Source: a virus | Strand: one strand, 5' to 3' | Virus record (IMG/VR): IMGVR_UViG_3300013101_000036 | Location: 1-36,399 of that record | Length of the DNA stretch: 36,399 nucleotides | Part shown: positions 610 to 33,684 of the stretch, piece by piece | Layout of the letters: the number at the start of each line of letters is the position of its first letter | Numbering within the stretch: the first letter of the stretch is position 1 | Position numbers and translations under genes: made by a program | The notes under the pieces: model-generated | The model's input: the letters and a program-made list of their open reading frames with translations, nothing else | Told to the model about the DNA's origin: nothing | The model's database searches: none

Positions 610-631
610 GCTATGTACCTGTAATGAAAAA

Positions 632-645
632 TGAACTCAAGTTCA
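632..645. promoter_or_regulatory. Dispersed palindrome, copy 1 (intergenic)
   Basis: TGAACTCAAGTTCA is an interrupted palindrome with half-sites TGAAC/GTTCA around four central bases. It lies 2 bases beyond the stop of the gene ending at 648 and 22 bases before the ATG at 609. It is identical to the copies at 13192 and 35405. I see no promoter elements beside it and no T-run that would make it a terminator. It is proposed as a protein-binding site; the binding protein is unknown. Confidence 0.7.
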
Positions 646-647
646 AC

Positions 648-884
648 TTAGACAAAATATTGTGGCAAGGTTTCGTCTCCTACTACTTTACCAACTGCTA
701 CACCATTGAATATTCTAACATCACCGCCTATAGCATACCGTATTGAATTGCTTTTTGGTATATCTTTCAAGCCAGTAGGAGTGGCTACCTGCAACACTGA
801 GCCTTTGTCTACAACTACTGTGCCTATGGCGGCATCCGCACTAGGTAGCAGTAACTTTTTAAGACTAGCTATGGAATTACTCAT
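648..884 (-). CDS. Very small tail-tip/hub accessory protein
   Basis: A 78-residue protein starting at 884 in an ATGA overlap with the stop of the preceding gene, so probably translationally coupled. The N-terminal third contains a short helix-like stretch (SIASLKKLLLPSADAAIG). The rest is beta-rich, with the pattern GGDVRIFNGVAVGKVVGDE near residues 53-71, resembling short OB-like phage proteins that follow the baseplate hub gene in some siphoviruses. The function is not established; placement in the hub cluster is the main support for a tail-tip role. Confidence 0.65.
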   Translation of the reverse strand: MSNSIASLKKLLLPSADAAIGTVVVDKGSVLQVATPTGLKDIPKSNSIRYAIGGDVRIFNGVAVGKVVGDETLPQYFV

Positions 885-1186
885 ATACGTGGTCTCTCTA
901 TGTCTAAGTCAGTGAACAGATCGGCCTCAGTAGCACTGTGTGATATGCCAATTATCTTTCCTCTCCATACTCGGCCTTGCAGAGCATCAATGACTTCTAC
1001 TATCTGGCCTACTCTTACGTTAGACCTATAGTTTGTGGATAGGGATATAGTATCAATAGGCTCATTGTCCTGTATTTCTGTAGTACCCCTGTTAACTGCC
1101 ACAGTCACATTGCTGAGAAGAGGATCAATGATGTCTGGACCCCGTATATCCCCTGGTGATCTTATGACAATGATATCTACGGACAT
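881..1186 (-). CDS. Small tail-tip protein with OB-like beta domain
   Basis: A 101-residue protein whose ATG at 1186 shares one base with the upstream TAA (TAATG). The C-terminal half reads VGQIVEVIDALQGRVWRGKI, then ISHSATEADLFTDLDIERP. This pattern of alternating strands occurs in small proteins encoded beside gpD-like hub genes and looks like a detached hub subdomain. The stop overlaps the next start as ATGA. A part in hub assembly is inferred from the neighbours, not shown by the sequence. Confidence 0.65.
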   Translation of the reverse strand: MSVDIIVIRSPGDIRGPDIIDPLLSNVTVAVNRGTTEIQDNEPIDTISLSTNYRSNVRVGQIVEVIDALQGRVWRGKIIGISHSATEADLFTDLDIERPRI

Positions 1187-1710
1187 TAGGCTGTATGTCC
1201 TGCAATGAATACTACTACAGGAAACTCGGTAGACCCGTTAACTGTTAGTGGTACATTATTCAGTCTATACGCTACATAGGTTGCTGTATAGCTTGCTTTA
1301 AGTACGGCTACTGCCTCTGTCGGTATACTGACCTGCGTTTCTGTAGCAGTAACTGCTCCACCTACTGTACCAAACCACTGAGATGAGAAGCCCCCATTAT
1401 TAGGGTATGATAAATTCTTAGACCGCTCATTAGCAAAGATCAAGTAACCATCGTTGCCTTCACCTACCTTATAGGGAGCACCTGCCGATATGGGTGTCAA
1501 GTTACCTATGCTTGTAGTAATATCATCAATGACTACTCCAGCACTTTTGAAGATCAGAATAACTGGATCATCAATACCTGGAACAAACTGAGTATTACCA
1601 TTGTTCATACCATCTGGTCTACCATCTACTTCTGCTGTAAGAATAGCTGAGCTATCCTCGTCTTTAGTGAATTGCACAGTGACGCTCGTTGTGTACTGTT
1701 TAGCTGCCAT
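1186..1710 (-). CDS. Tail-tip-associated protein, function unknown
   Basis: A 174-residue, mostly beta-predicted protein rich in Thr, Val, Gly and Asn with no cysteine. It starts at 1710, one base after the hub gene's stop, and ends in a TAATG junction with the next gene, so it belongs to the hub translation unit. The N-terminus (TTSVTVQFTKDEDSSAILTAEVDGRPDGM) suggests an immunoglobulin-like or beta-sandwich fold. I do not recognise a named family. A tail-tip structural protein is most likely from context. Confidence 0.6.
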   Translation of the reverse strand: MAAKQYTTSVTVQFTKDEDSSAILTAEVDGRPDGMNNGNTQFVPGIDDPVILIFKSAGVVIDDITTSIGNLTPISAGAPYKVGEGNDGYLIFANERSKNLSYPNNGGFSSQWFGTVGGAVTATETQVSIPTEAVAVLKASYTATYVAYRLNNVPLTVNGSTEFPVVVFIAGHTA

Positions 1711-1711
1711 T

Positions 1712-4700
1712 TTACTGATCCTCTATAACATATTGAACTGGTGTACCTGCTACGCCCTGCGTATCACATATTAGGCACTTAACTTTATATTTAACTAGAG
1801 CTAACCCGTATCCGTTGTGTACAGTAAGGTCTGCTGTTAATTCACTTTCGTATTGTTTATGAATTATAGCCCCTAAACTTACAGAGTACCATGTTATGCT
1901 CGTGATACTCTCTGCTATAAAGGACAGAGCACCTTTACCATCTACAAACTCAACTACCTGCTCTTCGTCTCTAGTGTCCCATGTTTGCGTACCTATAAAT
2001 GCAGTACCTGCATCTGTAGTCTTAATTAAGATACCAAGCCTCCACGGTGTAGGGTATGCACGTAACACACCTTTTAACTCGTTAGTTTCATCTGGTATGA
2101 ACTCTAAAACGTCCCCATAATCATTGTCACTGTCAGTGACTCTGTACTTGTTATAGCCTGATCTAGCCTCGTAGTTCTCACTCGCAGATAGGTTGTCTTG
2201 CAGATCAGCATAGTAATGGTCTACCGTAGAGGTAGGATATGCATTAGTGTTAACTATGTACTTACTGCGAACTATTAAACTACCATCTAAGTCAGAAGTA
2301 ATGATAGCCCCAAACGTGCCAAGTATGGATACCACTAAGTCCAGTGGCTGAGCATTAGTAGCCACCACTAGATTAGCAGGGATATACCAATCAGTGAAGT
2401 CCCAAGTAACTGATTGACCTAATATGTCTTCTACAATCTCACTTGCTAATGTTGCAGTATCATACGACACAGTGACTGAAGATGACCTTGGTGATCTGAG
2501 AGACATAGCAGGACTCTGCCCCTCTACCACTATAGATGACTCCGCTGGGCTTCCTCTATCCACACTCTTAGTGTTGTACTGGAATGTATACACCTCACCA
2601 CGAAGGTCAACTGTAAATAACGCACCCTCTACAAACTCACCATAGTAAGTAAGGTCTTTCAGTATCATTCTACATGTCCACACAGGGTCGCTTTCTGCTA
2701 TAGCTATGTTAGTCTCCAACAGCTCTACCCATTTTCCGTTTATGTATGCACGAGGTGGGGCTAACATTGGTGGTATTACTGTATCTGCCTGTAGTGTCCA
2801 ATAACTAGAGTGGTCAACCACTACGGTGTTGTGTCCTAGTATGCCCCAGTCACTCTCGTGCTGTACGACAGCAGGATACACACGAGTGTACGTAGCTTCA
2901 TGTTGCTTTCTGTTTATAGTAAATATGGTGTACACAGACTCATGTTGTGCATTTGCGTACCCAAGATTATTGTACTGAGCTGTATGCTGATATACGACCA
3001 TAGGTGGTGAGTCATACAATGCAGTATGTCCAGCTCGTATAAACGATAGGTTATTATAGTTAGATACATGCTGGTTACGTGCTATAGGGAATTGGGTGTA
3101 TGTGGACACATGTTGCTGATTCACTATAGCAAAGTCACCCCATGCAGCTTCATGCTCCGCTGACACTATGTAGTTGTATATGGATTCATGCTGATTAGCC
3201 ACTGTCTCAATAATAGTATCGTAAGGTGCTTCATGTTGTGCATTGAACACGCCTAGCTCTATATACGGGGCAGTATGTTGCACTGACATACTATAGTGGA
3301 TAAGAGCTACATGCTGATTAGCCGCTCTAGTCTCATATAGTGCTTCATGTTGTGATACAACGGATAGGCCATACGAGGATTCATGTGCATAACGGACTTT
3401 AAAGTACGCATCAAACATGTACTCTTGGCTTATATATTTATACAGGTCAACATCTACCGTCCATTCCTGTCCTAATTCAAACTTAAACAAAGTCTTATCT
3501 CCTGGTGGTAAATATGATACAAATATCTGTGTTGAGTATGAAGATATAAACAAGGGGTTACTTGTGTTATTTACTGTACTAGACCCGAATATCATTAATG
3601 GGTGAGCACCGTCTCCCCAATAACTTAGCATAAGAGCGTTGTGTGGTGGGCTTCCTTTCCATGCCTCAAAGTACTCTCTAGGTGTGCCTGGGTATGCAGA
3701 AGGCTCTGTAGACCCATACGCTAATAATGCTGGTGAAGCAGGGGTAGTTAAGATATTCTCACCGTACGCACCTACACCATCCGCTGACTGAATGTAAGCC
3801 ACACGCTCTGCTGTGGTCTGCCAACCTACAGGGAAGAGTAGAGAATTGTGTGCCATGTATTCCACATAGCCCATGTTATGACTGTGTATATGGGATACAT
3901 CAGGGCCATACCCATTCCATATCCCTTCAATAGCTGCTAACCCGAAGTTATCCCTATGATTATTTACATAGTCTAGTAACTCCTGCACAAAGTCCATACT
4001 TGTTATTAGGTATTCTAGCCCAAGCTCAGATTCTCTCAAGTTAGCACCAGAAGAGTCTAAAGCATACTGCATGTCCAGCTCTAGGCTTATAGCTCGTACT
4101 GAGTACTCCTGATCTATCTCCCATCGTGATGCTACTAGCTCCATGAGCCTTGGATATTCATGACCTAGCTCAAATATGGCATCACCTAGTGCATACTGCA
4201 TGTCCAGCTCTAAGATTATAAGAGATAACCCAGAGGCATTTACCACACAGTTGTTTATACCAGCAGCATTTATTGGCCTAGAGTTTATAGCACTGGATAT
4301 AGGGCAATCAGCACCCACCCCTCTGGTGTTATATGATATGTCCCATTCTTTTCTTACACGTTTGTCTGACTCTGGGATACTTATATCATTTATTCGCTCA
4401 TCATTTACATCAAAAGTATACTCTTGCTTCGGTGGTACAGGAGACCCACCTACTGCTGCCATAATAAGAGTATTACGGCTTTTTATGCCAATAGAATCAT
4501 GTATTACAATGGATGCTAAGGGGTCAGTTAGCTGTACATTGCCTAGTTGCACCCCGTTGTCTCTTGATCTCTCGTACACTGCATCAATCGTGTGATCATG
4601 GTAGAGAGAGGCAGACCCGTCCACTGTTATGCCAAGTATGCCACTAGCATTTATATCCTGTGAGTTACTTAATGCAGTACTAGATGGTCGAGTACGTTGC

Positions 4701-6133
4701 CCTATACCCTCTAATGCGTGGTCATTAGTTATGTTAATGGACGCATCTTTATATGTAGCATTTATCCACTGATATACTACAACATCATCTACAGCAAACG
4801 GATTAGTATCTGGGTAGTTACTGCTGTTAGCTGTACCTTTGAATCTGACTTTGACATCAGAGTTGGTATAGCTGTTGAGGTCTAATGATTTGTTATTCCA
4901 GAAATAACTATCACTAGCATCTTGGAATGTGTCTGCTGAGGTTCTGATAAACTCAGTAACCCATGCAGATCCGTCCCATACTTGAACTTCAAATGTGCCT
5001 GGTGCATAGCCATTAGCAAAGTACCAATGCAGAGAGTAGTAAAAAGATGCATAAACTCGGTAAGTGGTGGGGTCATACGCAGTTATTGTATCGAGATTAG
5101 CTACATCATTTATATTAGCAGGGGTATATTCTACGAAGTTACCCCCTTGAAAGCCTGAGTCAGGTCCTGTACCGTAGTTACCACCACTACTAGATACCAC
5201 AGACCAATCACCATTATCTCCTGCGGCATTTTCAAGATAAGGCCCTAGACTTCCATCAGTGAATTGAGAGATATGTACTACAGTCGGTTCGCCCTCTTCA
5301 ATAATCAAAGGAACAGTAGAGCTACCCTCTGCCTCAGTGGGTTGCCCTTCGTCCTTTACAACCATAATGTTGTACAAACCAAACGCAGGCATGGTAGGTA
5401 TTATTAATTCTATCTCATCATCTGCCCATGAAGCTGTGCTCGCCTCTACCGCCACTGTAGATGTATCTAATGTGAACGCATCCAGTATAAGAACTTTATC
5501 GTTAACGCCTTTGGTTGCCCCAAAGTTACCACCTACAATGTTCACAGACTCGCCAACACTGGCGTATTCTTTAGGTGGATCTATAAATTCAATAAAGGGA
5601 GAGAGGTCTACATAGTCATATACCATTTCCCATTTCTGGTTAGTATTCCATGTACCACCATTAGGGTTGCCTTCAGTAGGCCATGTAGCTGGATATGATG
5701 CAGAGGGATCATTAGATACAGAAGAGGATGAGATGAACCAACCACCAGATGGCCCCCAATCTGGAACATCGTTATAGTGATGGAAGTTACGACCAGATCC
5801 AGCTTGTCCTTTTACTACAACCCAGATAGGTTGACCAGAAGGATATACGCCTGTTAGGGTGAAAGTGGGTGCATCCCAATCCACTCTAGTAGTATTCTCC
5901 ACCCATTCTTCAATGAGGACAGCACCTGTAGGATCGTCTACTGTGCCACCTGAATATACTGCGAATCTGAGGTCAGTTTGAGTAGCTGCCTGACTACTGG
6001 AGTAGGTAACTTGTAAAGTTAATCCTGTAGCTGTCCCATGCCATTCTGGTATGAGATAAGAGATCATCCATACAGCTTCTACGACTGTGCCATAACCTGT
6101 GCCGTATGTAGCCCCTACTCTGTTCTGTGGCAT
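1712..6133 (-). CDS. Large mosaic tail hub protein with IPT/TIG, CAP/SCP, QH repeats and gpD-like hub domain
   Basis: A 1,473-residue protein, the second largest here. From the N-terminus I see: a Trp/Ser-rich beta-sandwich region (about 1-170); an IPT/TIG-like domain (about 180-280, with PFIEFIDPPKEYASVGESVN); a jelly-roll-like region (about 290-450); a segment with ELDMQYAL repeats (about 630-710); a CAP/SCP domain (about 713-860) with H762 in YMAHNSLLFP, E792 in YGENIL, and W825/H831 in WKGSPPHNALML; fifteen [Q/A/E/G/D]H repeats (about 916-1112); and a C-terminal region (about 1115-1473) with ILGQSVTWDFTDWYIP and TSDLDGSLIVRSKY. That last region resembles gpD/gp27-type hubs that cap the tail tube. 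The hub assignment rests on pattern and on the small tail-tip genes that follow. A CAP domain inside a tail hub is unusual; its role (cell-surface binding or processing) is unknown. Confidence 0.8.
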   Translation of the reverse strand: MPQNRVGATYGTGYGTVVEAVWMISYLIPEWHGTATGLTLQVTYSSSQAATQTDLRFAVYSGGTVDDPTGAVLIEEWVENTTRVDWDAPTFTLTGVYPSGQPIWVVVKGQAGSGRNFHHYNDVPDWGPSGGWFISSSSVSNDPSASYPATWPTEGNPNGGTWNTNQKWEMVYDYVDLSPFIEFIDPPKEYASVGESVNIVGGNFGATKGVNDKVLILDAFTLDTSTVAVEASTASWADDEIELIIPTMPAFGLYNIMVVKDEGQPTEAEGSSTVPLIIEEGEPTVVHISQFTDGSLGPYLENAAGDNGDWSVVSSSGGNYGTGPDSGFQGGNFVEYTPANINDVANLDTITAYDPTTYRVYASFYYSLHWYFANGYAPGTFEVQVWDGSAWVTEFIRTSADTFQDASDSYFWNNKSLDLNSYTNSDVKVRFKGTANSSNYPDTNPFAVDDVVVYQWINATYKDASINITNDHALEGIGQRTRPSSTALSNSQDINASGILGITVDGSASLYHDHTIDAVYERSRDNGVQLGNVQLTDPLASIVIHDSIGIKSRNTLIMAAVGGSPVPPKQEYTFDVNDERINDISIPESDKRVRKEWDISYNTRGVGADCPISSAINSRPINAAGINNCVVNASGLSLIILELDMQYALGDAIFELGHEYPRLMELVASRWEIDQEYSVRAISLELDMQYALDSSGANLRESELGLEYLITSMDFVQELLDYVNNHRDNFGLAAIEGIWNGYGPDVSHIHSHNMGYVEYMAHNSLLFPVGWQTTAERVAYIQSADGVGAYGENILTTPASPALLAYGSTEPSAYPGTPREYFEAWKGSPPHNALMLSYWGDGAHPLMIFGSSTVNNTSNPLFISSYSTQIFVSYLPPGDKTLFKFELGQEWTVDVDLYKYISQEYMFDAYFKVRYAHESSYGLSVVSQHEALYETRAANQHVALIHYSMSVQHTAPYIELGVFNAQHEAPYDTIIETVANQHESIYNYIVSAEHEAAWGDFAIVNQQHVSTYTQFPIARNQHVSNYNNLSFIRAGHTALYDSPPMVVYQHTAQYNNLGYANAQHESVYTIFTINRKQHEATYTRVYPAVVQHESDWGILGHNTVVVDHSSYWTLQADTVIPPMLAPPRAYINGKWVELLETNIAIAESDPVWTCRMILKDLTYYGEFVEGALFTVDLRGEVYTFQYNTKSVDRGSPAESSIVVEGQSPAMSLRSPRSSSVTVSYDTATLASEIVEDILGQSVTWDFTDWYIPANLVVATNAQPLDLVVSILGTFGAIITSDLDGSLIVRSKYIVNTNAYPTSTVDHYYADLQDNLSASENYEARSGYNKYRVTDSDNDYGDVLEFIPDETNELKGVLRAYPTPWRLGILIKTTDAGTAFIGTQTWDTRDEEQVVEFVDGKGALSFIAESITSITWYSVSLGAIIHKQYESELTADLTVHNGYGLALVKYKVKCLICDTQGVAGTPVQYVIEDQ
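2798..3388 (-). repeat. Fifteen-copy QHxxxY protein repeat array in the hub gene
   Basis: This stretch encodes residues about 916-1112 of the hub protein. It contains 15 units that each begin with a pattern [Q/A/E/G/D]-H-[E/T/V/S]-[A/S]-x-[Y/W], as in QHEALY, QHTAPY, QHESIY, EHEAAW, QHVSTY and QHESDW. Units are 12 to 16 residues long, most often 14. One unit (QHVALIHY) has a two-residue insertion before the aromatic. The DNA copies have diverged, so the repeat is kept at protein level and is not a recent tandem duplication. Regular His/aromatic spacing suggests a stacked beta structure or a metal-binding face. Confidence 0.85.
4062..4083 (-). repeat. 22-base direct repeat, copy A (encodes LELDMQYAL)
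   Basis: A 22-base stretch identical to positions 4191-4212, 129 bases (43 codons) away, in the same reading frame of the hub gene. Both copies encode the peptide LELDMQYAL. The exact nucleotide identity contrasts with the diverged QH repeats further on and suggests a recent duplication or gene conversion. Confidence 0.85.
4191..4212 (-). repeat. 22-base direct repeat, copy B (encodes LELDMQYAL)
   Basis: Partner of the repeat at 4062-4083. The flanking peptide (FELGHEY, ELGLEY and ELGQEW elsewhere) shows that related EL-x-x-[Q/E]-[Y/W] units recur across this part of the hub protein, with this pair the most similar. Confidence 0.85.
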
Positions 6134-6152
6134 ACCTCACTCCAAATATTTA

Positions 6153-6563
6153 CTAGGTATAGATAGAGTCAAACTCGCCAGCTAAGAATCGGAAGATGTC
6201 GTTGGTTTGTATATCTCTTGCTATATTTAAAATACCATAATATAGCACATTACCAGAAGTACTTGCGTCCATGATCGCTATGTGTGTGATGATGCCCCAC
6301 CCTGCTGTGGCCTTAGTAAACTCCCAATCTTCATTATTGCTTGTAGTCTTCAAGGCAGACGCAGTAAAGCTCCGTGTCGTGCCATCAATAAGAAGCCGTG
6401 AGTAACTGCCACCAGATGCTTCATCTTGACTGCCTTCTGCATTATCGTCCAGACCGTTAACTGATGTAAATAATGCTATGTACGTGTTAGGTGGTGGGCT
6501 ATACACTGTACTTCTTAGTACGTGGTTATTAAGTAGATCCGCTAGATACGTAGAGTGTGCCAT
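6153..6563 (-). CDS. Small virion protein of the tail-fibre-associated family
   Basis: A 136-residue protein whose ATG at 6563 overlaps the preceding TAA as TAATG. It has the pattern of a common small phage tail/fibre-associated family: an N-terminal helix with a Leu-rich start (YLADLLNNHVLRSTVY), PPNTYIALFTSVN near residue 26-38, SGGSYSRLLID near residue 50, EDWEFTKATAGWGIITHIAIMDA near residues 77-99, and a final DIFRFLAGEF. The family occurs beside receptor-binding genes in many phages; no enzymatic residues are evident. It sits between the fibre array and the hub gene, with a 19-base gap before the hub. Confidence 0.75.
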   Translation of the reverse strand: MAHSTYLADLLNNHVLRSTVYSPPPNTYIALFTSVNGLDDNAEGSQDEASGGSYSRLLIDGTTRSFTASALKTTSNNEDWEFTKATAGWGIITHIAIMDASTSGNVLYYGILNIARDIQTNDIFRFLAGEFDSIYT

Positions 6564-7267
6564 TATGTTTTACCTGTTGTGACCTGTGTAATAGGTGTAG
6601 TTGCTTCAGCTATTTGCCGTCCAAGTGTCTCTAATGCTGAGGGAGATTCACCACCATGCAGTGCTGGTGTGTACAGCGTGTTAGATACACTATGCAATAC
6701 ACCATTTAGCATGTCCTTAAATCTACTGATATCACACGCAGGCATCTGCTGAAGAGCAATGCTTACACCCTGAGAAGGCCCACCGTTATTAGCTATAATG
6801 TGTGCTGCGGTATCCGTAGCTAACTTCACTAAATAGTATTCTGCTTCTGCATTTTGTAGCAATTCATATACCTCGTCTTCCGTGGTATCGTTATTGAACC
6901 CAAGTTCAATTTCGCAAGCTGCAAGATTCTGCTCGTGCTGTAGTATCTCTCGCTCTCTCCCCAGCATGGTTCTATTAAACGCCTCTAGCCGTCTGTACTG
7001 CCTACTTATCTTTAGGTTAAGAAGCTCTGATCTATCTGGGTTATCTCTTGTATTATATAGCTTCTTTTTTAGCTTCTTAATACGCAAGTTCAATACGGCA
7101 ATGTCATATTCACTATCTGCCTTACCGCTGTACGCTATTTCCAGTTCTATAACACTCTGCCTAAAGCGTCTAGCTGGTGTTAGTTGAGACCCGTCCACAA
7201 AGTTCTGTATAGCATAATTGCTTTGAGGTTGTGAGCAAGCGTTCATGTATCTTTTTATATTGTCCAT
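6563..7267 (-). CDS. Helical/coiled-coil protein, function unknown
   Basis: A 234-residue protein that differs from its beta-rich neighbours: residues about 38-140 are strongly helical and charged (LNLRIKKLKKKLYN, LLNLKISRQYRRLEAFNRTM, REREILQHEQNL), consistent with an antiparallel coiled coil. The C-terminal part is milder, with LQQMPACDISRFKDMLNGVL. It has no signal peptide or membrane segment. It could be a fibre assembly chaperone or a helical virion part; neither can be proved here. It starts at 7267 after an AGGT site and ends in a TAATG junction. A copy of the dispersed palindrome lies inside it at 6895-6908. Confidence 0.6.
   Translation of the reverse strand: MDNIKRYMNACSQPQSNYAIQNFVDGSQLTPARRFRQSVIELEIAYSGKADSEYDIAVLNLRIKKLKKKLYNTRDNPDRSELLNLKISRQYRRLEAFNRTMLGREREILQHEQNLAACEIELGFNNDTTEDEVYELLQNAEAEYYLVKLATDTAAHIIANNGGPSQGVSIALQQMPACDISRFKDMLNGVLHSVSNTLYTPALHGGESPSALETLGRQIAEATTPITQVTTGKT
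6895..6908. promoter_or_regulatory. Dispersed palindrome, copy 2 (inside a gene)
   Basis: TGAACCCAAGTTCA has exact TGAAC/GTTCA half-sites with central CCAA. It lies within the coding sequence of the helical protein, over codons for ELGFNN. Being inside a gene, it is not explained as a gene-end hairpin or as a leader element of the next gene. Confidence 0.6.
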
Positions 7268-7281
7268 ATTGTTACCTGTTA

Positions 7282-13178: not shown

Positions 13179-13191
13179 GTGTTCTCCTAGA

Positions 13192-13205
13192 TGAACTCAA
13201 GTTCA
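13192..13205. promoter_or_regulatory. Dispersed palindrome, copy 3 (intergenic)
   Basis: TGAACTCAAGTTCA fits exactly between the stop codon of the upstream gene (ending at 13206) and the Shine-Dalgarno of the gene starting at 13178. It takes up 14 of the 27 bases in this gap. In a region where most genes touch or overlap, the gap seems to exist for this site. Confidence 0.7.
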
Positions 13206-13553
13206 TTACTTAAAGTTTTGATAAGCGAATACTGTTAATACAGATCCTACTTGCTCTTTCTGCAAGAAGCGGTCAAGTGTGTCTTCAGTTATAGAAGCCT
13301 TTACTATAGCTCCTGCTAACCATGATCGTATTAGTCCCTCATGACCTCGCTCTACCTCCATTATGTCACCTACCCTGTCGATCATCTTAACGACCTCCCA
13401 GTATGTGCCATCCGTGATCGTAAGTAACTCAAATTCTGCCAAGGTTGGTGCAGTGAATAGTCCACCGTCAGTGGTAGCCACTGATATAGTGGTATCAGCA
13501 GTATCAATGTTTGACGTAAGGTATGTCTGTGCAAAGTTACTGTATATCTGCAT
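13206..13553 (-). CDS. Short protein consisting of a fibre N-terminal attachment domain
   Basis: A 115-residue protein that aligns by eye over nearly its whole length with the first ~100 residues of the fibre at 8580-10286: YSNFAQTYLTSNIDTADTTI, GGLFTAPTLAEFELLTI, YWEVVKMIDRVGDIMEVERG, then a stretch ending in DTLDRFLQKEQ. It therefore looks like a free-standing version of the fibre-anchoring domain, either an adaptor or a remnant of a fibre whose distal part was lost. It begins 2 bases after the stop of the 553-residue gene and is followed by a palindrome-containing gap. Confidence 0.75.
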   Translation of the reverse strand: MQIYSNFAQTYLTSNIDTADTTISVATTDGGLFTAPTLAEFELLTITDGTYWEVVKMIDRVGDIMEVERGHEGLIRSWLAGAIVKASITEDTLDRFLQKEQVGSVLTVFAYQNFK

Positions 13554-13555
13554 GG

Positions 13556-15217: not shown

Positions 15218-15220
15218 GTG

Positions 15221-15643
15221 TCACCATGATATCAAAGGATTAGGCCAGCTAAGGCGAAGAGTGGATAATTTGAACACAAGGTCAGTAGGGAACACTCCAT
15301 AACATATAAGCGGTTTATCTATATTGTATGCTGTAATATCTGCATAGATAACTAAATTGCTTACCGTAGTATCAAGTTGCTCAAAGGCTACATCACCTAT
15401 TCTGAACTCTGCCTTGGTCCCCGATGTTATTACATCTGCACCTGGTATAACTATGCCTCCTTTTTGGTAGTGCAATGTAGGTGCGACCTCTAGTGCTTGT
15501 ATATCATTGAATGATACCATCCTGTCTGTGTACTTAAACCCAGGAGCTAACAAAGCCATTTTCAACGTATCAGTAGCTAGACGCACACCTCCACCAAGTA
15601 TGAACTCCTTAGTACGTGTAAATTGGTAGACAGCTATACTCAT
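15221..15643 (-). CDS. Small virion protein of the tail-fibre-associated family
   Basis: A 140-residue protein whose TAATG overlap at 15643 couples it to the upstream adhesin. It follows the pattern of a small phage protein family near fibre genes: EFILGGGVRLATDTLKMALLA, then HYQKGGIVIPGADVITSG, AEFRIGDVAFEQLDTTVSNL and VIYADIT, ending LRLSWPNPLISW. A related small protein lies at 6153-6563. The role within the virion is unknown. A weak two-mismatch version of the dispersed palindrome falls within it at 15271-15284; I do not annotate it as a site. Confidence 0.7.
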   Translation of the reverse strand: MSIAVYQFTRTKEFILGGGVRLATDTLKMALLAPGFKYTDRMVSFNDIQALEVAPTLHYQKGGIVIPGADVITSGTKAEFRIGDVAFEQLDTTVSNLVIYADITAYNIDKPLICYGVFPTDLVFKLSTLRLSWPNPLISW

Positions 15644-18713: not shown

Positions 18714-18722
18714 GCATGTCTC

Positions 18723-21074: not shown

Positions 21075-21478
21075 AAGAACCACGTCCCCATTTCACGCTT
21101 AGCTACTTCCCACATGTTATCTGCATGTGTCTTCAGGTTAGCTGGGAAATGGGTGTTGGCCTCCCATACTAGATCAATAGATACAGTACCAGACCCTGTG
21201 CGTTCACGCACTGTGTTGCCTTCATTATCTTTGATCTCCAAGCCATCATTACCTTCTTTATCTTTGAGATCAGGTGGGTTGTATGTAGTAAATAATATAC
21301 GTCCTGTTATATCCGTGGATACTACGCCATAACATACATGGATAACTGCGATAAAACTTCCAGCATAGTCCTCTGGGACTTCGCCTTTCACATACACCGC
21401 ATCTTCTGTGAGTTCTGCTTCAGCGTAGAATCTACCGTATTCCATTCTTCGCTGTATCGCAGTGATGTTATTAGCCAT
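21071..21478 (-). CDS. Small tail-region protein, function unknown
   Basis: A 135-residue protein starting in a TAATG junction at 21478 and ending in an ATGA overlap with the next gene. It has an N-terminal helix (ITAIQRRMEYGRFYAEAELT), a beta region (YAGSFIAVIHVCYGVVSTDI), a charged loop with two DN/KEGN segments (DLKDKEGNDGLEIKDNEGN), and a helical end (KTHADNMWEVAKREMG). I do not recognise the family. Tight coupling to both neighbours suggests that it acts with them in tail-tip assembly. Confidence 0.6.
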   Translation of the reverse strand: MANNITAIQRRMEYGRFYAEAELTEDAVYVKGEVPEDYAGSFIAVIHVCYGVVSTDITGRILFTTYNPPDLKDKEGNDGLEIKDNEGNTVRERTGSGTVSIDLVWEANTHFPANLKTHADNMWEVAKREMGTWFL

Positions 21479-22746: not shown

Positions 22747-22762
22747 ACCCCGTCCTCAATTA

Positions 22763-22776
22763 TGAACCTGAGTTCA
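22763..22776. promoter_or_regulatory. Dispersed palindrome, copy 4 (intergenic)
   Basis: TGAACCTGAGTTCA has exact TGAAC/GTTCA half-sites with central CTGA. It sits 9 bases past the stop ending at 22786 and 16 bases upstream of the ATG at 22746. The core runs opposite to copies 1 and 3, so the site is used in both orientations. Confidence 0.65.
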
Positions 22777-22785
22777 ATTTATGCT

Positions 22786-23781
22786 TTACGCACTTTCACC
22801 ATCTATAGCCACGATCACTTTATCACCTGTTAAGGAGTTAGCACCTGCTGGAATGATCCGTTTGTACCAGATAGGTACAGCCGCCGCTGCCGTAGTGAAT
22901 GTTATAGTATTACCTGTTGTGAACGTACCACTGAAACCTCTATAGTCCATAGTAAAATACGGCTTAGTGTAATCAGGGTTATTAGGGGTCAAGTCACTAG
23001 AGATGTTACCTGATAAGTTAATACCAAGAGTATCTGATGTAAGTGTGTACGTAGTAGCAGTGTCGAAGAATATAGTCCAATCCTGCTCCACTGTAGATAT
23101 GCTGTCTGTAATTATAGGGTAGACTACATCATCGTACGCACCTGACCCTGTTAGTGTAAACGCAGAGTATCCAGACACAATATCCGCACCTTCTACTACA
23201 GATGCTACACGAGTATCACCGCTTGCAGCATACGAGTTAACTAAGGCTGTGGCTAGAGTGATAGTAGCAACATCCCCTGCGTAAGTTGGTACACCTGATA
23301 TTACAATGTACTCTTCACTACCAACAGAGCTTACATTGGCTTTATCACTTATTCGTATTAGGTCCCCATCATTAAAGTAGTTTAATGCAACACCTTCAGT
23401 CATTACCTGAATAGTCATATCGTTAGCAGTAGCAGGCACGTTTAAATCACCACTACCATACTGTTGCTCAGATCCTGTAAGTGCCGATTGAGTGTCAGTC
23501 GCTGTGCCTTTGAATATGGTTATAGAGTCATCACCAGGGGTGAACGTCTCAACGAATATACGTGGGCGAACCAGAGACAGGTCATCGTCATTGGCTACAT
23601 GTATAAATACTTTACGGTATTTGGTAGAACCAGCCACACGTTCTGACTGAGGTACATCAGGCCATATATTGTTCTTAACACTTGTTGGAATCTGTGTAGC
23701 AGTCATTCTGCCACCGTTAGACCCTGCATCTGATCGCTCTACAGGATGTCTCCATATCATTTCTGATGACTGAATACTCAT
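22786..23781 (-). CDS. Tail/virion protein, divergent member of the shared IW-K-R family
   Basis: A 331-residue protein. The N-terminus (SDAGSNGGRM near residue 16-25, then NNIWPDVPQSERVAGSTKYR) matches a pattern I associate with phage virion proteins encoded near the tail tip. It is followed by KVFIHVANDDDLSLVRPRIF, equivalent to the CLYLRN segment of the other paralogues, and near the C-terminus by AVPIWYKRIIPAGA. It is thus a longer, more divergent relative of the four genes between 13556 and 18713, and the one nearest the tape measure. The start at 23781 has an AGGAG site 5 bases upstream. Confidence 0.7.
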   Translation of the reverse strand: MSIQSSEMIWRHPVERSDAGSNGGRMTATQIPTSVKNNIWPDVPQSERVAGSTKYRKVFIHVANDDDLSLVRPRIFVETFTPGDDSITIFKGTATDTQSALTGSEQQYGSGDLNVPATANDMTIQVMTEGVALNYFNDGDLIRISDKANVSSVGSEEYIVISGVPTYAGDVATITLATALVNSYAASGDTRVASVVEGADIVSGYSAFTLTGSGAYDDVVYPIITDSISTVEQDWTIFFDTATTYTLTSDTLGINLSGNISSDLTPNNPDYTKPYFTMDYRGFSGTFTTGNTITFTTAAAAVPIWYKRIIPAGANSLTGDKVIVAIDGESA

Positions 23782-23789
23782 GGTATCTC

Positions 23790-24176
23790 CTAAATAGTAA
23801 TTAGTTTAATTGTAGCTGTGTAATACCCATCAGGGGCTTGTGCTCCTACCTGATCTAAAGCTGTAGCTTCAAAAGCAGGGGCATCTTCATGTCTAAACAT
23901 AACAGGGTACGTCTTTGCACCAATAGTCAATGATAGCACGTTGCCAGCCTGTCTAGCCAGATCCTGCACATCTAACACTTGCTGCTTTGTTAACCAGCCC
24001 TGACCTTGATCCGCAGTTAATGTAATAGGCCGTCCTTCAAATAACTGCTGATATTGAATAACTGAAGCACCGCCAAGGGTGCGTTTATTAGTCTGTGCCA
24101 CGGCTTGTTGTGACCCTACCTCGTCTTCCCAGATCATGTCTGGGCTTAGAGTTACACCACTTAATATAATAGCCAT
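23790..24176 (-). CDS. Small Dit-like distal tail protein
   Basis: A 128-residue protein encoded immediately after the tape measure, one base separating stop and start. The pattern (NKRTLGGASVIQYQQLFEGR, PITLTADQGQGWLTKQQVLD, LSLTIGAKTYPVMFRHEDAP, YYTATIKLITI) matches small siphovirus proteins thought to form the distal tail ring that joins tube and tip. The position directly after the tape measure is where Dit proteins are normally encoded. The family call is from pattern memory and gene order, not from an alignment. Confidence 0.7.
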   Translation of the reverse strand: MAIILSGVTLSPDMIWEDEVGSQQAVAQTNKRTLGGASVIQYQQLFEGRPITLTADQGQGWLTKQQVLDVQDLARQAGNVLSLTIGAKTYPVMFRHEDAPAFEATALDQVGAQAPDGYYTATIKLITI

Positions 24177-24177
24177 A

Positions 24178-27100
24178 CTACCCTCTGCTCATCTTCTTGA
24201 GTGTGTTAACTAATTCTTTAGCTTGTTTACGCTCTCCATATAGCGTATATGCTTTATCACCAACATTCAAGGTGACACTACCTAAGTCTTCTGGACTTGG
24301 TGATGCAACAGATGACCCACCTCCTGATGGTGCAGCACCTGCTAGACCTCCACCAGCAAACGCAGGTAGCATACCCATGTTAAGCATATCAAAGAAGCCT
24401 TTGCCAAACTTGGATACCATAGAGGCACGTATTACATACTCACCGTTGGACAGCCATGACAGTATAGAATCAGAAGTAGCTGTACCTGCACCACGTATAG
24501 ACCCACCTGCTGCATTACTTTGTACGTCTTGATAACCACCATCCCTGTTGTTAGTTGGGGTGACACTGACTCCACTAGGTAAGTTTGTTATATTTACTTT
24601 TACATCGAAGGCTTCTTTAAATGCTTCCTCTAAATCTTTACGAGTCTTAGGAGTGTTAGCCTTAAAGTAGTATGTCTGTCCTTCTATTACTGCCTTTGTT
24701 GTGTTTTCCAGCTCCTCTTTGTTTGGTGTTACTGCCACGTTGTCGATCTTAAAGCTCTTTGAGCCATCAGAGTTCACTACATCAGTAACTATTAGGGAGG
24801 TTTCATAGGTAGCACCACTAGCATTAAGGACGTTATCAACTTGTGCGCTAAGTGTATCTACTGTACCGTCTTTTAGCACAAGACCAACATCTACATTGGT
24901 AGAAGGAATACCCCCAGCTAATGTCTTTCCTAAGTTCTTCCATAGATCATTGAACTTATCTGTAGATGCATATAAGTCAGAAAACAACTCACCTTTAGAA
25001 GCCATCTCAGATATCTTCGCATTGGCTTCTGCTACAGAGTTGCCTAGTGCTTTCATCCCTTTAGTCGATGCCAATGCTTCTGTATCCATCTTCTTAATTA
25101 AAGCGGTTGCACCTGGTACATTCTTTGTAAGCTCACCTATCTCTTTATTAAGCCCATCATACACATCAGATAGTTTACTTCTTTCTGCATCATTTAATGC
25201 GACTGTACTATCTGCTAAAGATTTACCTAGTGTTATCTGGTTAGCACGTAGGGTTATTCCAGCCTTGTCCATCTTCTTCAAGGCTTCTTCGTATGCTTGT
25301 ACCTTTCTAGGGTCTACGTCTTCTATACCTGCAAGGTCTTTTAGTGATTCACGAGAGCCTTTGGATGCGTCTTGTACGGCTATGGTAGCGTCTTCCAGCT
25401 CCAGCATAGCTTCATTATACTTCTGTATACCCTCCACACCCTCGAAGCCACCAGAATCCTGTGTCTCTTGGAACTTACGTGTAAGGTCTGCTAACTCTTT
25501 TTGTGCTGTCTTCTGTTCGTTTAACTTACGAGTTACATCGTCTTCTGCTACCTTTCTCTCGTTAGCCAGCTTAGCTAATCTAGCTATTTCCTTTGCCTGA
25601 TCCTTAGCAACGTCCCGTTGATCTTCTAGTAAAGATACCTTCTTTGTATCACCAGCGTCTCTCGCCCGTTCTATAAGTTTCTTATACTCTTTATCTATAT
25701 CTTTCAGCTCATACTTCAGACCTTTATCTACACCTAGATCAAACTTCTTATTCTTTGATGCCTGTGCTGTGTCTCTAATGACCTCATCAAGAGACCTGCC
25801 GTAATTCTCCATGCTCTTACGCATAGACCGTTGCGTTTTGTTTATGTTATCAAATGCACCGTCCATGCGATTAGCTGTAGCAATAGCATCATTAGTATAC
25901 TGATCGAACTCTTGCATCTGGTTATTAAGTGCAGCTCGCTTAACGATCATCTCAGATAGTTGATCTAATAACTTTTGGCTCCTGGTCTCAGCAGTGTTGT
26001 CCGATCCTGTATCTTGAGCAACAAAGTCCGTACCGTTAGCGAGAGCATAAGCTGCCCCTACCGCATTAGCATCTTCTATCTTCTTCTTAGCTAAGACTTC
26101 TCTGGCTCTTGCATCCTCTGTACTTTTAGTAAGGGCATCCAGTTCTGCTGTTGACATCTTAACTATAGCGTCAACGGCCATCTTTGATGCCACATTAGCC
26201 TCAGAAGCTCTAGCAGCCGTCATTTGCTTGGTTGCATTATCTATTATCTTCTGTTGTCTAAAGGCATCTAACTGTGCGTCTTCCACACTTTTATAGCTCG
26301 ATGCAGTCTCTTTGCTTAGCTCATTAATATCTTCCTGTAAACTCTTTATAATCGCAGCGTCCTTAGCCAGCTTCTGTGCTCTTGTATAACCTATTGACCC
26401 TTTGCTATCCTCTGCATATTTCTTACGTAGTGCGGCTACCTCTTCTTCTTTTGCTGCTAGTTTGTCTAGTGACTTAGCTGCAGCTTCACTACTAGCTTTC
26501 AATGCCTTAGCTCGTTGATCCTTTGCGTCCAATATTGTATTGGTGATGGCTACAAGCTCATCTACTTTATCTGTACCTAAAGCAAGGTCAAAACCTCCAA
26601 CAGCTTCACCCATCTCAGCTACTGCTGCCTCAGTATACTTAGCTGCCTCCTCAATAGCCTGCACTTGTGTAACCATAGCGTCAAGTGCTTCAAAGTCAGA
26701 TACATTTATGTCACTACCTAATTCAGTCAAGTTCTGTCTAAGATCATCTAACACCAGACTCAGTTCTTCTGCACTGCCCGTTTCAAAATCGAAATCCATT
26801 TTATCAGTAACAGTCTGTACTAAGTTGTCATATATAGTCTGTAGTCCTATAAGATTCTTCTTGGCTTCTTCAAGTCTCTCATTACTACCGTCAGATACTC
26901 CAGCGATTTGCAATGCCAGTAACTTCCTGGATGCTACATCTATCTCTTTTTGGTAGTCCTTAATACCAGCCACTAACTCTTTAGACCTATCATCCCCAGC
27001 TACTGCTGCTATATCAACCTTGGCTTCTATAGATATGTTAGCTAAGCGGTTTGTAATAGCATTTTCAAGCTGTTCTTGGATAGTGTTTGCTGCCTCATAC

Positions 27101-29334
27101 ACAGCAGATGCATCTTTAAACTGTTTCTTCAGTGCATCAGCAAATGCCACCTTATCTACAACAGGTGCTGCATCTATAGGTATTTCTATATCCAGCTTAG
27201 TACCGTCTAGTACGTCAGCCCCTGTCTCAAGCAATATGTTGGTAGCCTGTTTGTACTCTTTCTCCAGTTTACGTCTATCAATACGCACCTTCGCTTCATA
27301 ATCCACTTCAACTACTGATTGGAAACCTAGAGCTTCTGCTATCTCCTCTTTAAATGCGTATAAGCCAGCCAATATAAGACCCAGTGGGCCTAATAATGAC
27401 CTGAACGCTACTTTAAGAAGACCAAGTGCTTGTGTGAGTAAAGATGTCTTGGCAGCCGCCGCACCTAGCGGTACACCTAATGCCCCAAGATTAGCTACAG
27501 CCGCCGCAGTCTGTGCTGTTCCTGCTTGAGCAGCCTGTGCAGCCACAGACCTAGCTCTAGCCGCAGTCAGTTTAATCTGGGTTATAGCAGCCTTTTCTTG
27601 GGCTAGGGATACAGCAGACGTAGCAGTTGCGAGTGTGCTTTCTGCCGCTGACGTTGCAGCAGTCGCTAATGCTAATTGCTCACGAGCACGTACAAGGTTA
27701 GCTGAGTTAGCTACACCAACTAACTCTCTTCTGTTTACCTCTGCTTGTGCCGCAGCCTCACGTACTCGTGCAGCATTGACAGCAGTGATAGCTGCCAATT
27801 TACCTTGCAACGCAGCGACAGTAACTCGTGCGTTCTCTACAGCCACAGCAGTAGAGCTTACTATTATTGCGTTAGCTCGTTGTACTGCTCTAGCATTAGC
27901 TGATCGTGCAGTAGTAGATGCGTTTAATGCAGCAGTTACTGAAGTGAGTGCTTGGGTAGTAGTGGCGGCTGCCACCGTTGTGCCTGTAGCTGTTGCACTG
28001 AATATGCCTAGAGCGGTGGTGTAATAGCTGTTGAGGGCAACGACCATACCTACTATACCCTTAGACATACCTAGTATGACACCACTGATCCCTTTGATAA
28101 TGAGTAAGCTACCGATAGCCTTCATGATCTGGAATACGTTACCCCAGTTCACATGCAGCTCAGCAACCCACTTAACGGCATCTACCAATCCCTGTAGCAG
28201 ACTCTTCAGACCCTCTGACACCTGTAGTAAGAAGTCTTGACCCTCTGCACTAGCTAAGAACGCTTGCATGGATTTGACTGCTTCAAGTATCACAGGAGTA
28301 AGGTTGTCACCCATCTCGATGGCTAAAGCCTTCATCGAGTTCTTCATTACCTTACTCTGCTCAGTGAGCGAGTTCATCACCTTGTCATATTCTTCTAAGG
28401 ATGATGTGCCAGAGTTATACGAGTTGGTAGCCGTATCTAAGTGACCATATAGACGCTTGTATCCATCTGCTGCACTATTGATCAGTTTGGTATAAGTAGA
28501 TAGGATACGACCACCACCAAATAGCTCTTTAGCTGTGGCATCTCGTTGAGCACGATCCATCTCATATAGCTTAGTGGTGACAGTAGTTAATGCCCCTACT
28601 ACGTCCTGCTCCATGAGTTCTAACCATTTCTGGGTAGATAACCCTGCAACATCTGCGAAGTCCTCTGCCTTAGCAGACATGTTACTGAACACCTTAACGG
28701 TGGACGTACCAAGTACCTCTGTTTGTACACCCATGTCCTTGAAGAAGGCCACTAATGCACCAGATTGCTGTGCAGTAACACCACCAATACTACCTATCCG
28801 CTTCATTGCATCACCAAGCTCTGTGGCACTAGCTACAGATGTATTGGACAAGGCATTAAGCATAGAGAATATTTGCTCTACGTTACCTGGGTCTATATTG
28901 AATATGGAAGTGAGCTGTGCACCTAGTTTAGCGGCAGCTTCTGCGGTGAGACCAAGAGTTACTGTAGCTTTAGCCACAGACTCTGAGAACGCACGTATGG
29001 ATTCTACACCAAATGACCCTAAGCCTAGCTGACCTGCAATGGCTGCAATGTTTGCAAGCTCTATGGCACTCGTGCTCATAGTCTTGGACATTTCTAGTAA
29101 GCTACTAGATAGACTCTCTATCTGCCGTTCTGAGAAGTTAGTAGTCTTAGCTACATTAATCATCTCACGTTCAAAACGTGCAGCTTCTTGGGCTGGGAAG
29201 GTCATAGCTTTGAAAGCTACGGTAATGGATGCGACAGCACCTACAAATCGGATAATACCAGATTGTAGAGACTTTAAGGCAGCAGATGCATGATCGACTG
29301 CCGTTATTTTGATCTTTAGTTCACTGGTAGCCAC
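24178..29334 (-). CDS. Tail tape measure protein
   Basis: A 1,718-residue protein, the longest in the window. The start is GTG at 29334 with TAGGAG 7 bases upstream. Residues about 60-300 match the phage minor tail/tape measure core (TP901-type; for example AGQLGLGSFGVESIRAFSES, KELFGGGRILSTYTKL). Hydrophobic segments lie near 400-440 (GSLLIIKGISGVILGM) and 645-662 (LLGPLGLILAGLYAF). Between about 460 and 640 it is Ala-rich, and 900-1500 is charged coiled coil. Near 1620-1640 it has SDSILSWLSNGEYV, a motif common close to tape measure C-termini, then a Gly-rich end. If about 0.15 nm of tail per residue holds, the tail would be roughly 250 nm. It acts as length ruler and is ejected into the cell. 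Confidence 0.95.
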   Translation of the reverse strand: MATSELKIKITAVDHASAALKSLQSGIIRFVGAVASITVAFKAMTFPAQEAARFEREMINVAKTTNFSERQIESLSSSLLEMSKTMSTSAIELANIAAIAGQLGLGSFGVESIRAFSESVAKATVTLGLTAEAAAKLGAQLTSIFNIDPGNVEQIFSMLNALSNTSVASATELGDAMKRIGSIGGVTAQQSGALVAFFKDMGVQTEVLGTSTVKVFSNMSAKAEDFADVAGLSTQKWLELMEQDVVGALTTVTTKLYEMDRAQRDATAKELFGGGRILSTYTKLINSAADGYKRLYGHLDTATNSYNSGTSSLEEYDKVMNSLTEQSKVMKNSMKALAIEMGDNLTPVILEAVKSMQAFLASAEGQDFLLQVSEGLKSLLQGLVDAVKWVAELHVNWGNVFQIMKAIGSLLIIKGISGVILGMSKGIVGMVVALNSYYTTALGIFSATATGTTVAAATTTQALTSVTAALNASTTARSANARAVQRANAIIVSSTAVAVENARVTVAALQGKLAAITAVNAARVREAAAQAEVNRRELVGVANSANLVRAREQLALATAATSAAESTLATATSAVSLAQEKAAITQIKLTAARARSVAAQAAQAGTAQTAAAVANLGALGVPLGAAAAKTSLLTQALGLLKVAFRSLLGPLGLILAGLYAFKEEIAEALGFQSVVEVDYEAKVRIDRRKLEKEYKQATNILLETGADVLDGTKLDIEIPIDAAPVVDKVAFADALKKQFKDASAVYEAANTIQEQLENAITNRLANISIEAKVDIAAVAGDDRSKELVAGIKDYQKEIDVASRKLLALQIAGVSDGSNERLEEAKKNLIGLQTIYDNLVQTVTDKMDFDFETGSAEELSLVLDDLRQNLTELGSDINVSDFEALDAMVTQVQAIEEAAKYTEAAVAEMGEAVGGFDLALGTDKVDELVAITNTILDAKDQRAKALKASSEAAAKSLDKLAAKEEEVAALRKKYAEDSKGSIGYTRAQKLAKDAAIIKSLQEDINELSKETASSYKSVEDAQLDAFRQQKIIDNATKQMTAARASEANVASKMAVDAIVKMSTAELDALTKSTEDARAREVLAKKKIEDANAVGAAYALANGTDFVAQDTGSDNTAETRSQKLLDQLSEMIVKRAALNNQMQEFDQYTNDAIATANRMDGAFDNINKTQRSMRKSMENYGRSLDEVIRDTAQASKNKKFDLGVDKGLKYELKDIDKEYKKLIERARDAGDTKKVSLLEDQRDVAKDQAKEIARLAKLANERKVAEDDVTRKLNEQKTAQKELADLTRKFQETQDSGGFEGVEGIQKYNEAMLELEDATIAVQDASKGSRESLKDLAGIEDVDPRKVQAYEEALKKMDKAGITLRANQITLGKSLADSTVALNDAERSKLSDVYDGLNKEIGELTKNVPGATALIKKMDTEALASTKGMKALGNSVAEANAKISEMASKGELFSDLYASTDKFNDLWKNLGKTLAGGIPSTNVDVGLVLKDGTVDTLSAQVDNVLNASGATYETSLIVTDVVNSDGSKSFKIDNVAVTPNKEELENTTKAVIEGQTYYFKANTPKTRKDLEEAFKEAFDVKVNITNLPSGVSVTPTNNRDGGYQDVQSNAAGGSIRGAGTATSDSILSWLSNGEYVIRASMVSKFGKGFFDMLNMGMLPAFAGGGLAGAAPSGGGSSVASPSPEDLGSVTLNVGDKAYTLYGERKQAKELVNTLKKMSRG

Positions 29335-29344
29335 GGAAGTGCTC

Positions 29345-30033
29345 CTACATATCTAATGATTTTATGTGATTAGTTATTATTTTATTATCTTTCTTACCAA
29401 AAAGCCCAGAAATAACAGAAACTAAATCATGTATATAGGATAGTCTATTTGACGAGGACATGTATGTAGCTGAAGCGACATACGCTCTAAATTTGTCTAT
29501 AGGCATATCTAGTACGTCTGCCTCACGGAATCCACAAGACACAAGTACCAGTATCTCGTCTATTAAGAAGCTCGCTTTTTCCGAATACTTCTTTTCTTTT
29601 TTGATACCTTTGAAGTGGGAGATGTCTGGGTCTGTGGAGGTACTAACATTGGAACTATCTTTAATAAAAAAAAAGCCTTATTTAAGTCCCATTCTGCCAT
29701 AAGAATATCCATAGCATCTTCTACCTCTAAATCAAGGAATTGGTCTTCTGTCAGTGAGCATAATGCACTAGCAACTGGGTATATCTTATCCATACCGTTT
29801 ATTACCAAGTCCATTAAGACTGCTGTATTGTTAAGGTCTGCATTGACTTTATCAGATGGTGTATCCATCCCTATTTCAGCCATTACGAACTTTATGAAAT
29901 GTAGTACTTGACCTATCTGACGAACTTTACATTTGTAGATAGTAACGGTATCACCTGTAGATAGTGTGATAACGGGTTGTTCCTCATTGAGAATGTCAGA
30001 GACCTCTTTAGTCTCTTTTGTATAATTACTCAT
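29345..30033 (-). CDS. Tail assembly chaperone fusion G-T, made by -1 frameshift
   Basis: Ribosomes starting at 30033 read 123 codons to the TTA at 29667-29665, slip back one base on T TTT TTA, and continue from ATT at 29665 for 106 residues to the stop at 29345, giving 229 residues. I checked by hand that the -1 frame is open all the way (IKDSSNVSTSTDPDISHFKG onward) and includes SCGFREADVLDMPIDKFRAY, the typical T part. This is the lambda gpG/gpGT arrangement: the fusion binds the tape measure through T and recruits tail tube protein through G. Its place between major tail protein and tape measure is as expected. The T part lacks its own ribosome binding site. Confidence 0.9.
29563..30033 (-). 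CDS. Tail assembly chaperone G (unshifted product)
   Basis: The 156-residue zero-frame product. The start is taken at the ATG at 30033 (SNYTKETKEVSDILNEEQPV) after an AAAGGTG site; an upstream ATG at 30171 lies inside the major tail gene and is rejected. It is helical in its central part (ALCSLTEDQFLDLEVEDAMD) and ends in a basic tail, KVSKKKRSIRKKRAS. Like lambda gpG it should be the abundant form, with the frameshifted form at a fixed minor ratio. The leader gap upstream holds a copy of the dispersed palindrome. Confidence 0.88.
   Translation of the reverse strand: MSNYTKETKEVSDILNEEQPVITLSTGDTVTIYKCKVRQIGQVLHFIKFVMAEIGMDTPSDKVNADLNNTAVLMDLVINGMDKIYPVASALCSLTEDQFLDLEVEDAMDILMAEWDLNKAFFLLKIVPMLVPPQTQTSPTSKVSKKKRSIRKKRAS
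29665..29674 (-). promoter_or_regulatory. Programmed -1 ribosomal frameshift site
   Basis: On the coding strand a run of nine T is followed by A. In the zero frame it reads GCT TTT TTT TTA, which contains the canonical slippery heptamer T TTT TTA (29671-29665). Re-pairing of TTT and TTA one base back gives TTT and TTT, after which the new frame runs without a stop to 29345. I see no obvious strong stem-loop directly downstream, so a stimulatory structure is not demonstrated. Confidence 0.88.
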
Positions 30034-30054
30034 TTTACACCTTTCACCAAAAAC

Positions 30055-30068
30055 TGAACTTGTGTTCA
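30055..30068. promoter_or_regulatory. Dispersed palindrome, copy 5 (intergenic)
   Basis: TGAACTTGTGTTCA has exact TGAAC/GTTCA half-sites with central TTGT, in the 79-base gap between the major tail gene and the chaperone gene. It is flanked on both sides by A-runs on the plus strand (T-runs on the transcribed sense), so a weak hairpin-terminator reading is possible for this copy only. The same half-sites without T-runs elsewhere argue for a binding site. Confidence 0.65.
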
Positions 30069-30112
30069 AAAACGCACCCCATATTACTGAGGTGCTAACC
30101 CTGTCGGGGGGA

Positions 30113-33281: not shown

Positions 33282-33301
33282 GTCTTTATCTCCTAAAATT
33301 A

Positions 33302-33320
33302 GTGCCTAAATACACGGCAC
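33302..33320 (-). terminator. Hairpin in the gap after the basic-tailed protein gene
   Basis: GTGCC and GGCAC form a perfect 5-base stem around a 9-base loop, and on the transcribed sense the stem is followed by TAATTTTAG. A second AT-only hairpin (CTTAAT/ATTAAG, 33322-33338) overlaps the preceding stop codon. Either may weaken read-through or protect the upstream mRNA end. The short stem makes strong termination unlikely. Confidence 0.35.
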
Positions 33321-33333
33321 ACTTAATTACATA

Positions 33334-33657: not shown

Positions 33658-33684
33658 TTTTATTTCTCCTAATTTAACACCTAA

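Follow-up and report, generated by a model that had tools for sequence, protein, structure and literature searches.

Evenly spaced, lineage-private palindromes dispersed over the genomes of a siphophage family

The cluster A mycobacteriophages L5 and Bxb1 carry more than 20 short dispersed sites, the stoperators, which lie at promoters and in the short spaces between genes (PMC9283540), and the motif is private to a lineage and diverges between relatives (PMC6550527). The L5 stoperator is a 13-bp asymmetric site that is bound by a monomer, occurs in one orientation only and loses its function if reversed (PMC9283540). The T1-like phages T1, TLS and Stevie, described as lytic, carry 16-21 dispersed, mostly intergenic copies of 21-22 bp repeats, which have no assigned role and have been likened to stoperators (PMC4319613, PMC11447400). 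In P1, the annotation places many C1 operators at promoters, dispersed over the ~95 kb plasmid prophage. Among bacterial arrays, the ram site of Bacillus subtilis is an inverted repeat of 14 bp that recurs along the replicon; it is chromosomal and lies near the origin, and its binder RacA, a MerR-type winged-helix protein, anchors DNA at the pole with a long coiled coil.

We analysed a 36,399-base fragment of an uncultivated virus (hereafter the window), which carries siphophage head and tail genes on the minus strand. Among all 5+5 gapped palindromes of the window, TGAAC-N4-GTTCA (TGAACNNNNGTTCA) ranked first, with six exact copies where half-site frequencies predict 0.037. Four of the exact copies were intergenic and two (6895 and 35405) lay within genes, and copies with one mismatch numbered four against one expected. 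The features of the window are as follows.

632-645, unstranded: palindrome TGAACTCAAGTTCA in the gap 610-647, 2 bases past the stop codon of the upstream gene 648-884
6895-6908, unstranded: palindrome TGAACCCAAGTTCA within gene 6563-7267
13192-13205, unstranded: palindrome TGAACTCAAGTTCA, directly after the stop codon of gene 13206-13553; site and Shine-Dalgarno take up the whole 27-base gap 13179-13205
15271-15284, unstranded: possible degenerate copy TGAACACAAGGTCA with one mismatch, within a gene
22763-22776, unstranded: palindrome TGAACCTGAGTTCA in the gap 22747-22785, with a Shine-Dalgarno directly downstream
30055-30068, unstranded: palindrome TGAACTTGTGTTCA in the gap 30034-30112, with a terminator-like hairpin just upstream of it, behind the major tail gene
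30074-30095, minus strand: terminator-like hairpin GCACCUC...GGGGUGC followed by U5, between the major tail gene and the palindrome, recognised from sequence and folds
30113-30877, minus strand: major tail protein gene (phrog_807), which served to find relatives
32338-32351, unstranded: probable degenerate copy TGCACTTGAGTTCA with one mismatch, within a gene
33744-34721, minus strand: major head protein gene (phrog_1623), which groups the window with relatives of SM1, DLP3/5, L338C, JP1 and SIO-2
35405-35418, unstranded: palindrome TGAACTCAAGTTCA within gene 34784-36235; the relatives L005 and L007 have TGAACTTAAGTTCA at the same place

Short tandem-like repeats were also seen at 33136-33171 and 34930-35240, inside genes 32535-33281 and 34784-36235.

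The sequence-only reading of the window had proposed that the gaps of the tail module match the palindromes one to one and exist to hold them. We hand-checked the gene list, in which 493 of 36,001 bases (1.4%) are intergenic. The four tail gaps concerned (79, 39, 27 and 38 bases) were real and held one palindrome each, and the 27-base gap contained just the site and a Shine-Dalgarno, as had been described. They were the only tail gaps longer than 20 bases, although a 20-base gap (29543-29562) exceeds the 19 bases that had been given as the limit for all others. On the hand-checked list, the chance of at least four of six sites being wholly intergenic was P = 8e-8, and of the 14 gaps in the tail module, the four sites fell precisely in the four largest (P = 0.001 if gaps are picked at random). 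Because two exact copies lie inside genes, however, the match holds from gaps to sites and not from sites to gaps. None of the three head-region gaps (86, 62 and 52 bases) held a site; of the two hairpins attributed to them, the one at 33658-33743 was strong but the one at 33282-33333 was weak.

The association between gaps and sites was real and general, since the site, by approximate gene calls, was 3 to 18 times over-represented in the intergenic DNA of relatives. The further claim, that the gaps are there to accommodate it, failed. Among gaps of at least 25 bases, a site was present in 10 of 66 in SM1, 8 of 69 in DLP5 and 27 of 93 in L338C; the relative L008 had no site in the gap after its major tail gene; and the claim thus did not survive the refuting conditions that the earlier reading had itself set. 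The head gaps of the window likewise show that a gap can occur with no site in it. The gap 30034-30112 would exist without the site because a terminator-like hairpin lies there too. As most gaps of relatives are empty and some copies are coding, the gaps are not made for the site; rather, the site settles there when possible. The constrained feature is the genome-wide spacing of about one site per 2-4 kb, for which gaps and gene ends are probably the cheapest locations.

The window tail protein matched many uncultivated relatives, and the head protein was 40-47% identical to those of Pseudomonas SM1/PaMx31, Stenotrophomonas DLP3/DLP5, Rhizobium L338C, Agrobacterium JP1, Aeromonas HJ05 and Vibrio phages. 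The nearest relatives, L005 and L007, shared the TGAAC palindrome, with one copy at the matching place in the counterpart of gene 34784-36235. More distant relatives carried TGAAATCGATTTCA instead, in 5-13 copies per 22-75 kb record, against 0 for a control pattern. A whole-record search for symmetric motifs showed that almost every examined member of a broad family of ~75-110 kb siphophages, including SM1, DLP3/DLP5, L338C, JP1, HJ05, SIO-2, 29Fa.3 and many uncultivated phages, has its own palindrome in about 14-58 copies. Exact copies numbered 30 in SM1 (TGCAA-N4-TTGCA), 31 in DLP5, 31 in DLP3, 47 in L338C, 33 in JP1 and 16 in HJ05. Among the motifs were GTGCAARCGYTTGCAC, GTGCAACATGTTGCAC, TTGCAAACGTTTGCAA, TTTGCAACCGGTTGCAAA, GCAATTAATTGC, TGCAAT-N2-ATTGCA, TTTGCAAC-N-GTTGCAAA, TTTGCACG-N-CGTGCAAA, TTTGACCG-N-CGGTCAAA, CGCACC-N-GGTGCG, TATAAC-N3-GTTATA and GCTATAAC-N2-GTTATAGC, and both even-centred and odd-centred geometries were found. 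Motif scores per 50 kb were mostly 30-90 in family members and below 10 in N4, P1 and shuffled DNA; N4 and P1 also served as control genomes for the palindrome count, and within 50 kb of either, the best palindrome had 2-3 copies.

The symmetric-motif search gave no clear motif in G027 and G029 and a weak, degenerate one in VHS1, and G013 and SIO-2 were low by exact copy count. One-mismatch or hybrid half-sites numbered 20 in SIO-2, 18 in VHS1 and 17 in G017, against 1.4, 3.1 and 1.5 expected. In SIO-2 (NC_016567.1) and G017 (L027-L030), many half-site pairs were mixed (TGCAAT+ATTTCA; TGAAAT+ATTACA), as if the binder tolerated changes at position 3. L338C carried 13 additional TGCAA-N3-TTGCA sites, with the arms one base closer, next to its 47 of the usual spacing. 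In 29Fa.3 (OP547478.1), the palindromes at 26326 and 44685 formed the stems of hairpins that resemble intrinsic terminators and precede runs of T. The DNA alignments of the relatives were too divergent for DNA scans, and single resolvase proteins of divergent members, used as queries, retrieved few new phages.

Some of these motifs resemble operators of host regulators, and host proteins might accordingly silence the phages through the sites. The pattern TGNAA-N4-TTNCA is close to LacI-family operators, and GAAC-N4-GTTC to the LexA box of Gram-positive bacteria; TGCAARCGYTTGCA of SM1 and TGCAAACGTTTGCA of JP1 fit the LacI-family pattern with its central CG. We consider such a role highly improbable, as the motifs differ among phages of similar hosts, the spacing class shifts by one base, and 30-50 conserved sites would be an unusual phage investment against a host repressor. 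Identity with a LacI or LexA box was rejected as a resemblance only.

Compared with the cluster A stoperators, the family shares the 20-30 or more short, near-identical dispersed sites and the preference for short intergenic spaces, although about half of its sites are coding. The lineage-private motifs resemble the diversification of stoperators and repressors in cluster A phages (PMC6550527) and were therefore counted in favour of a stoperator-like reading. The family sites differ in being symmetric palindromes of 13-18 bp that are evenly spaced; in the symmetric-motif search the sites were inverted repeats in every genome. L5 stoperators need asymmetry and orientation and fail when reversed (PMC9283540), so we did not class the symmetric family sites as L5-type stoperators, and the symmetry counts against the stoperator-like reading. 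The T1-like repeats differ in being asymmetric and oriented, and in their unrelated sequence and phage family; the P1 C1 operators are asymmetric and promoter-tied, and P1 lacks a recurrent palindrome.

The explanation that we tentatively favour, with a little less than even confidence, is that the palindromes are the dispersed sites of one phage-encoded, symmetric-dimer protein that acts on transcription genome-wide in a stoperator-like manner. The number, symmetry, even spacing, preference for gaps and stop codons, selection on the DNA, lineage-private motifs and fixed position ahead of some promoters are observed; the dimeric phage protein, the block to transcription and the silencing are inferred. 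The proposed dimer would bind the palindromes across the genome, and its occupied sites, one per 2-4 kb, would halt or impede RNA polymerase, since transcription runs almost wholly one way. They would also insulate promoters starting just downstream, and the outcome would be a phage that is silent while plasmid-like, or whose expression is timed.

We analysed the placement of the exact sites in 24 genomes. The sites were more even than random placement (individually P < 0.05 in 16 of the 24; Fisher combined P about 4e-21), and mean spacings were mostly 2.3-5 kb. Gene boundaries and intergenic DNA were preferred (P 1e-2 to 1e-15 per genome). Sites started directly after a stop codon in 9 of 30 cases in SM1 (0.8 expected) and 15 of 47 in L338C (1.3 expected), and in several phages the order was stop codon, site, Shine-Dalgarno and start. 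These stop-codon sites, together with recombination genes as neighbours, could fit linkers that serve recombination where genes meet, or a different signal for DNA processing (packaging, replication or modification). We judge this very unlikely, since half of the sites lie in genes and the regular spacing is not tied to module borders.

Comparison of DLP5 with DLP3 showed that 30 of the 31 DLP5 sites align, 25 of them identically, with 98.6% identity in the sites versus 82% in the flanks. Within coding sites, third codon positions were identical in 84 of 84 cases versus 633 of 872 (73%) at random coding positions. These results indicate that selection keeps the site DNA itself, within genes too. 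As RNA, the motif formed a weak hairpin (-3 kcal/mol, z about 0), no better than shuffles; this weak fold and the selection on third codon positions led us to reject an RNA hairpin role and to prefer a role as DNA.

A scan for sigma70-like promoters around 953 sites in 26 genomes revealed -35 boxes starting 15-19 bases from the site centre in 36 sense and 2 antisense cases, against a background of ~3 per bin. Most sites had no recognisable promoter nearby, which argues against the stoperator-like reading. In L338C (NC_023502.1), ~25 near-identical sigma70-like promoters (TTGACAAAGGATCGGTTC..GTTAGATT) occurred genome-wide, for example at 59719, 77327 and 79757; their -35 box is followed by a conserved AAAGGA block, which lies outside the palindrome. 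A palindrome stood 7-12 bases upstream in ~14 of these 25, and the other ~11 had the same core and none. As promoters with and without the palindrome coexist in L338C, the two are distinct elements, frequently combined at one place.

The fixed, strongly strand-biased distance to -35 boxes would also suit a phage activator box that recruits RNA polymerase from about -50, with the promoter-less sites being activator-dependent and of poor consensus; the candidate binder described below, expressed with the replication genes, could then switch on later genes. This alternative is distinctly unlikely. The ~11 L338C promoters with no palindrome upstream speak against it, as does the lack of a recurrent -10-like element at a fixed distance over all sites, where the logos showed the palindrome only, and many sites have a Shine-Dalgarno and start codon within 10-20 bases, which leaves no room for a promoter.

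The lead candidate for the binder is PHROG_19880, offered as a lead and not as proof; the window does not include the replication region and hence gives no view of its own copy. All 23 compared genomes that include a replication region encode this protein, in most between a helicase and a RecA-like gene. It was predicted with good confidence to be a MerR-type winged helix (mean pLDDT 86.6), with MerR-, RacA- and BldC-DNA complexes as its nearest structures. One residue of its recognition helix was Arg, Lys, Tyr or Trp in nearly all TG[CA]AA phages, Ser or Asn in phages with TGCACG or TGACCG, and Ala in the one with CGCACC; a single exception was seen, G023, with Ala and a TGCAAA site, and TATAAC phages also had Trp. 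This covariation with the motif points to PHROG_19880 suggestively only. Whole-protein distances gave partial correlations of 0.06-0.19 with motif distances, no better than control proteins, so covariation as proof of the binder was rejected. This result, and a location in the replication operon rather than a typical immunity region, weigh against the stoperator-like reading, in which PHROG_19880 would be the candidate binder. The strongest protein-motif correlation was that of the major capsid protein (0.60), which is a clade effect of the large-capsid clade G020-G025, with mostly odd-centred sites.

The other role-less protein that all 23 of these genomes encode was phrog_17202 ('Gene X'; SM1 44202-45551, DLP5 47761-48564). 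Its gene follows a RuvC-like gene and usually has a site ahead of it, which in six lineages lies 60-145 bases upstream. Its predicted structure has an SH3-like N-terminal and a helical C-terminal domain. It was rejected as the binder because its PDB matches were limited to the SH3-like domain. A repressor search among genes shared at clusters of close sites found no common gene.

The main rival to the stoperator-like reading is an architectural or segregation role, which would be the simplest account of the even spacing and which we regard as possible but rather unlikely. A protein bound to the replicon-wide array would condense, anchor or partition the phage DNA, as RacA at ram sites and MatP, Noc and KorB at dispersed palindromes do, and the even spacing would itself be the function. 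The family has palindromes dispersed over the replicon, spaced evenly whatever the coding context, and the half of its sites inside genes is under DNA-level selection. DLP5 is a low-copy phagemid (PMC7326821), and the winged helix predicted for PHROG_19880 is of the MerR type common to RacA, a chromosome anchor, although the model lacks the RacA coiled coil. However, the sharp promoter peak just downstream of sites and the gene-end placement are unexpected for a purely structural site, and in lytic phages such a role would be anticipated only where condensation is important. The annotated genes also speak against partition by ParB/parS, which combines a ParB carrying an HTH with ParA: DLP5 gp114 matches the ParB N-terminal domain only, gp002 matches a ParB-like nuclease domain, and no ParA is annotated in DLP5 or SM1. 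A bolder version, in which a family-wide, ruler-like palindrome array and a MerR/RacA-like architectural protein organise, anchor or globally silence the phage chromosome through lineage-specific sites, seems to us likewise unlikely though possible; if true, phages would have an equivalent of the centromere arrays or nucleoid-organising arrays of bacteria.

The lifestyle evidence for the family is mixed. DLP3 and DLP5 form lysogens, which are stable in DLP3, DLP5 being the phagemid (PMC7326821), and lysogens of VHS1 are unstable but immune to superinfection (PMC10671443); these cases favour the stoperator-like reading. Against it, the majority of relatives are called lytic, for example Samunavirus UF_RH6 (PMC10281142), and the family resolvase had a match in only 1 of 84,980 bacterial species genomes under a restricted search pattern. 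This sole bacterial contig, Siccirubricoccus soli contig 185 (L226), is possibly a resident phage or plasmid.

A word search found no mention of the palindrome in papers on the family phages DLP3 and R21Y, and the family motif strings were absent from the phage papers searched, a limited literature. The array points to an apparently undescribed genome-wide DNA-binding system that would silence or organise the viral genome. Family phages infect Pseudomonas, Stenotrophomonas, Rhizobium, Agrobacterium, Aeromonas and Vibrio, and several have been proposed for therapy. The regular array offers a direct handle on their largely unexplained gene control, for which DLP5, SM1, L338C and JP1 are culturable, and it may explain lysogeny in some members while most look lytic. 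If the binder is found, the fast specificity changes would provide a natural experiment on a protein and dozens of its sites changing together.
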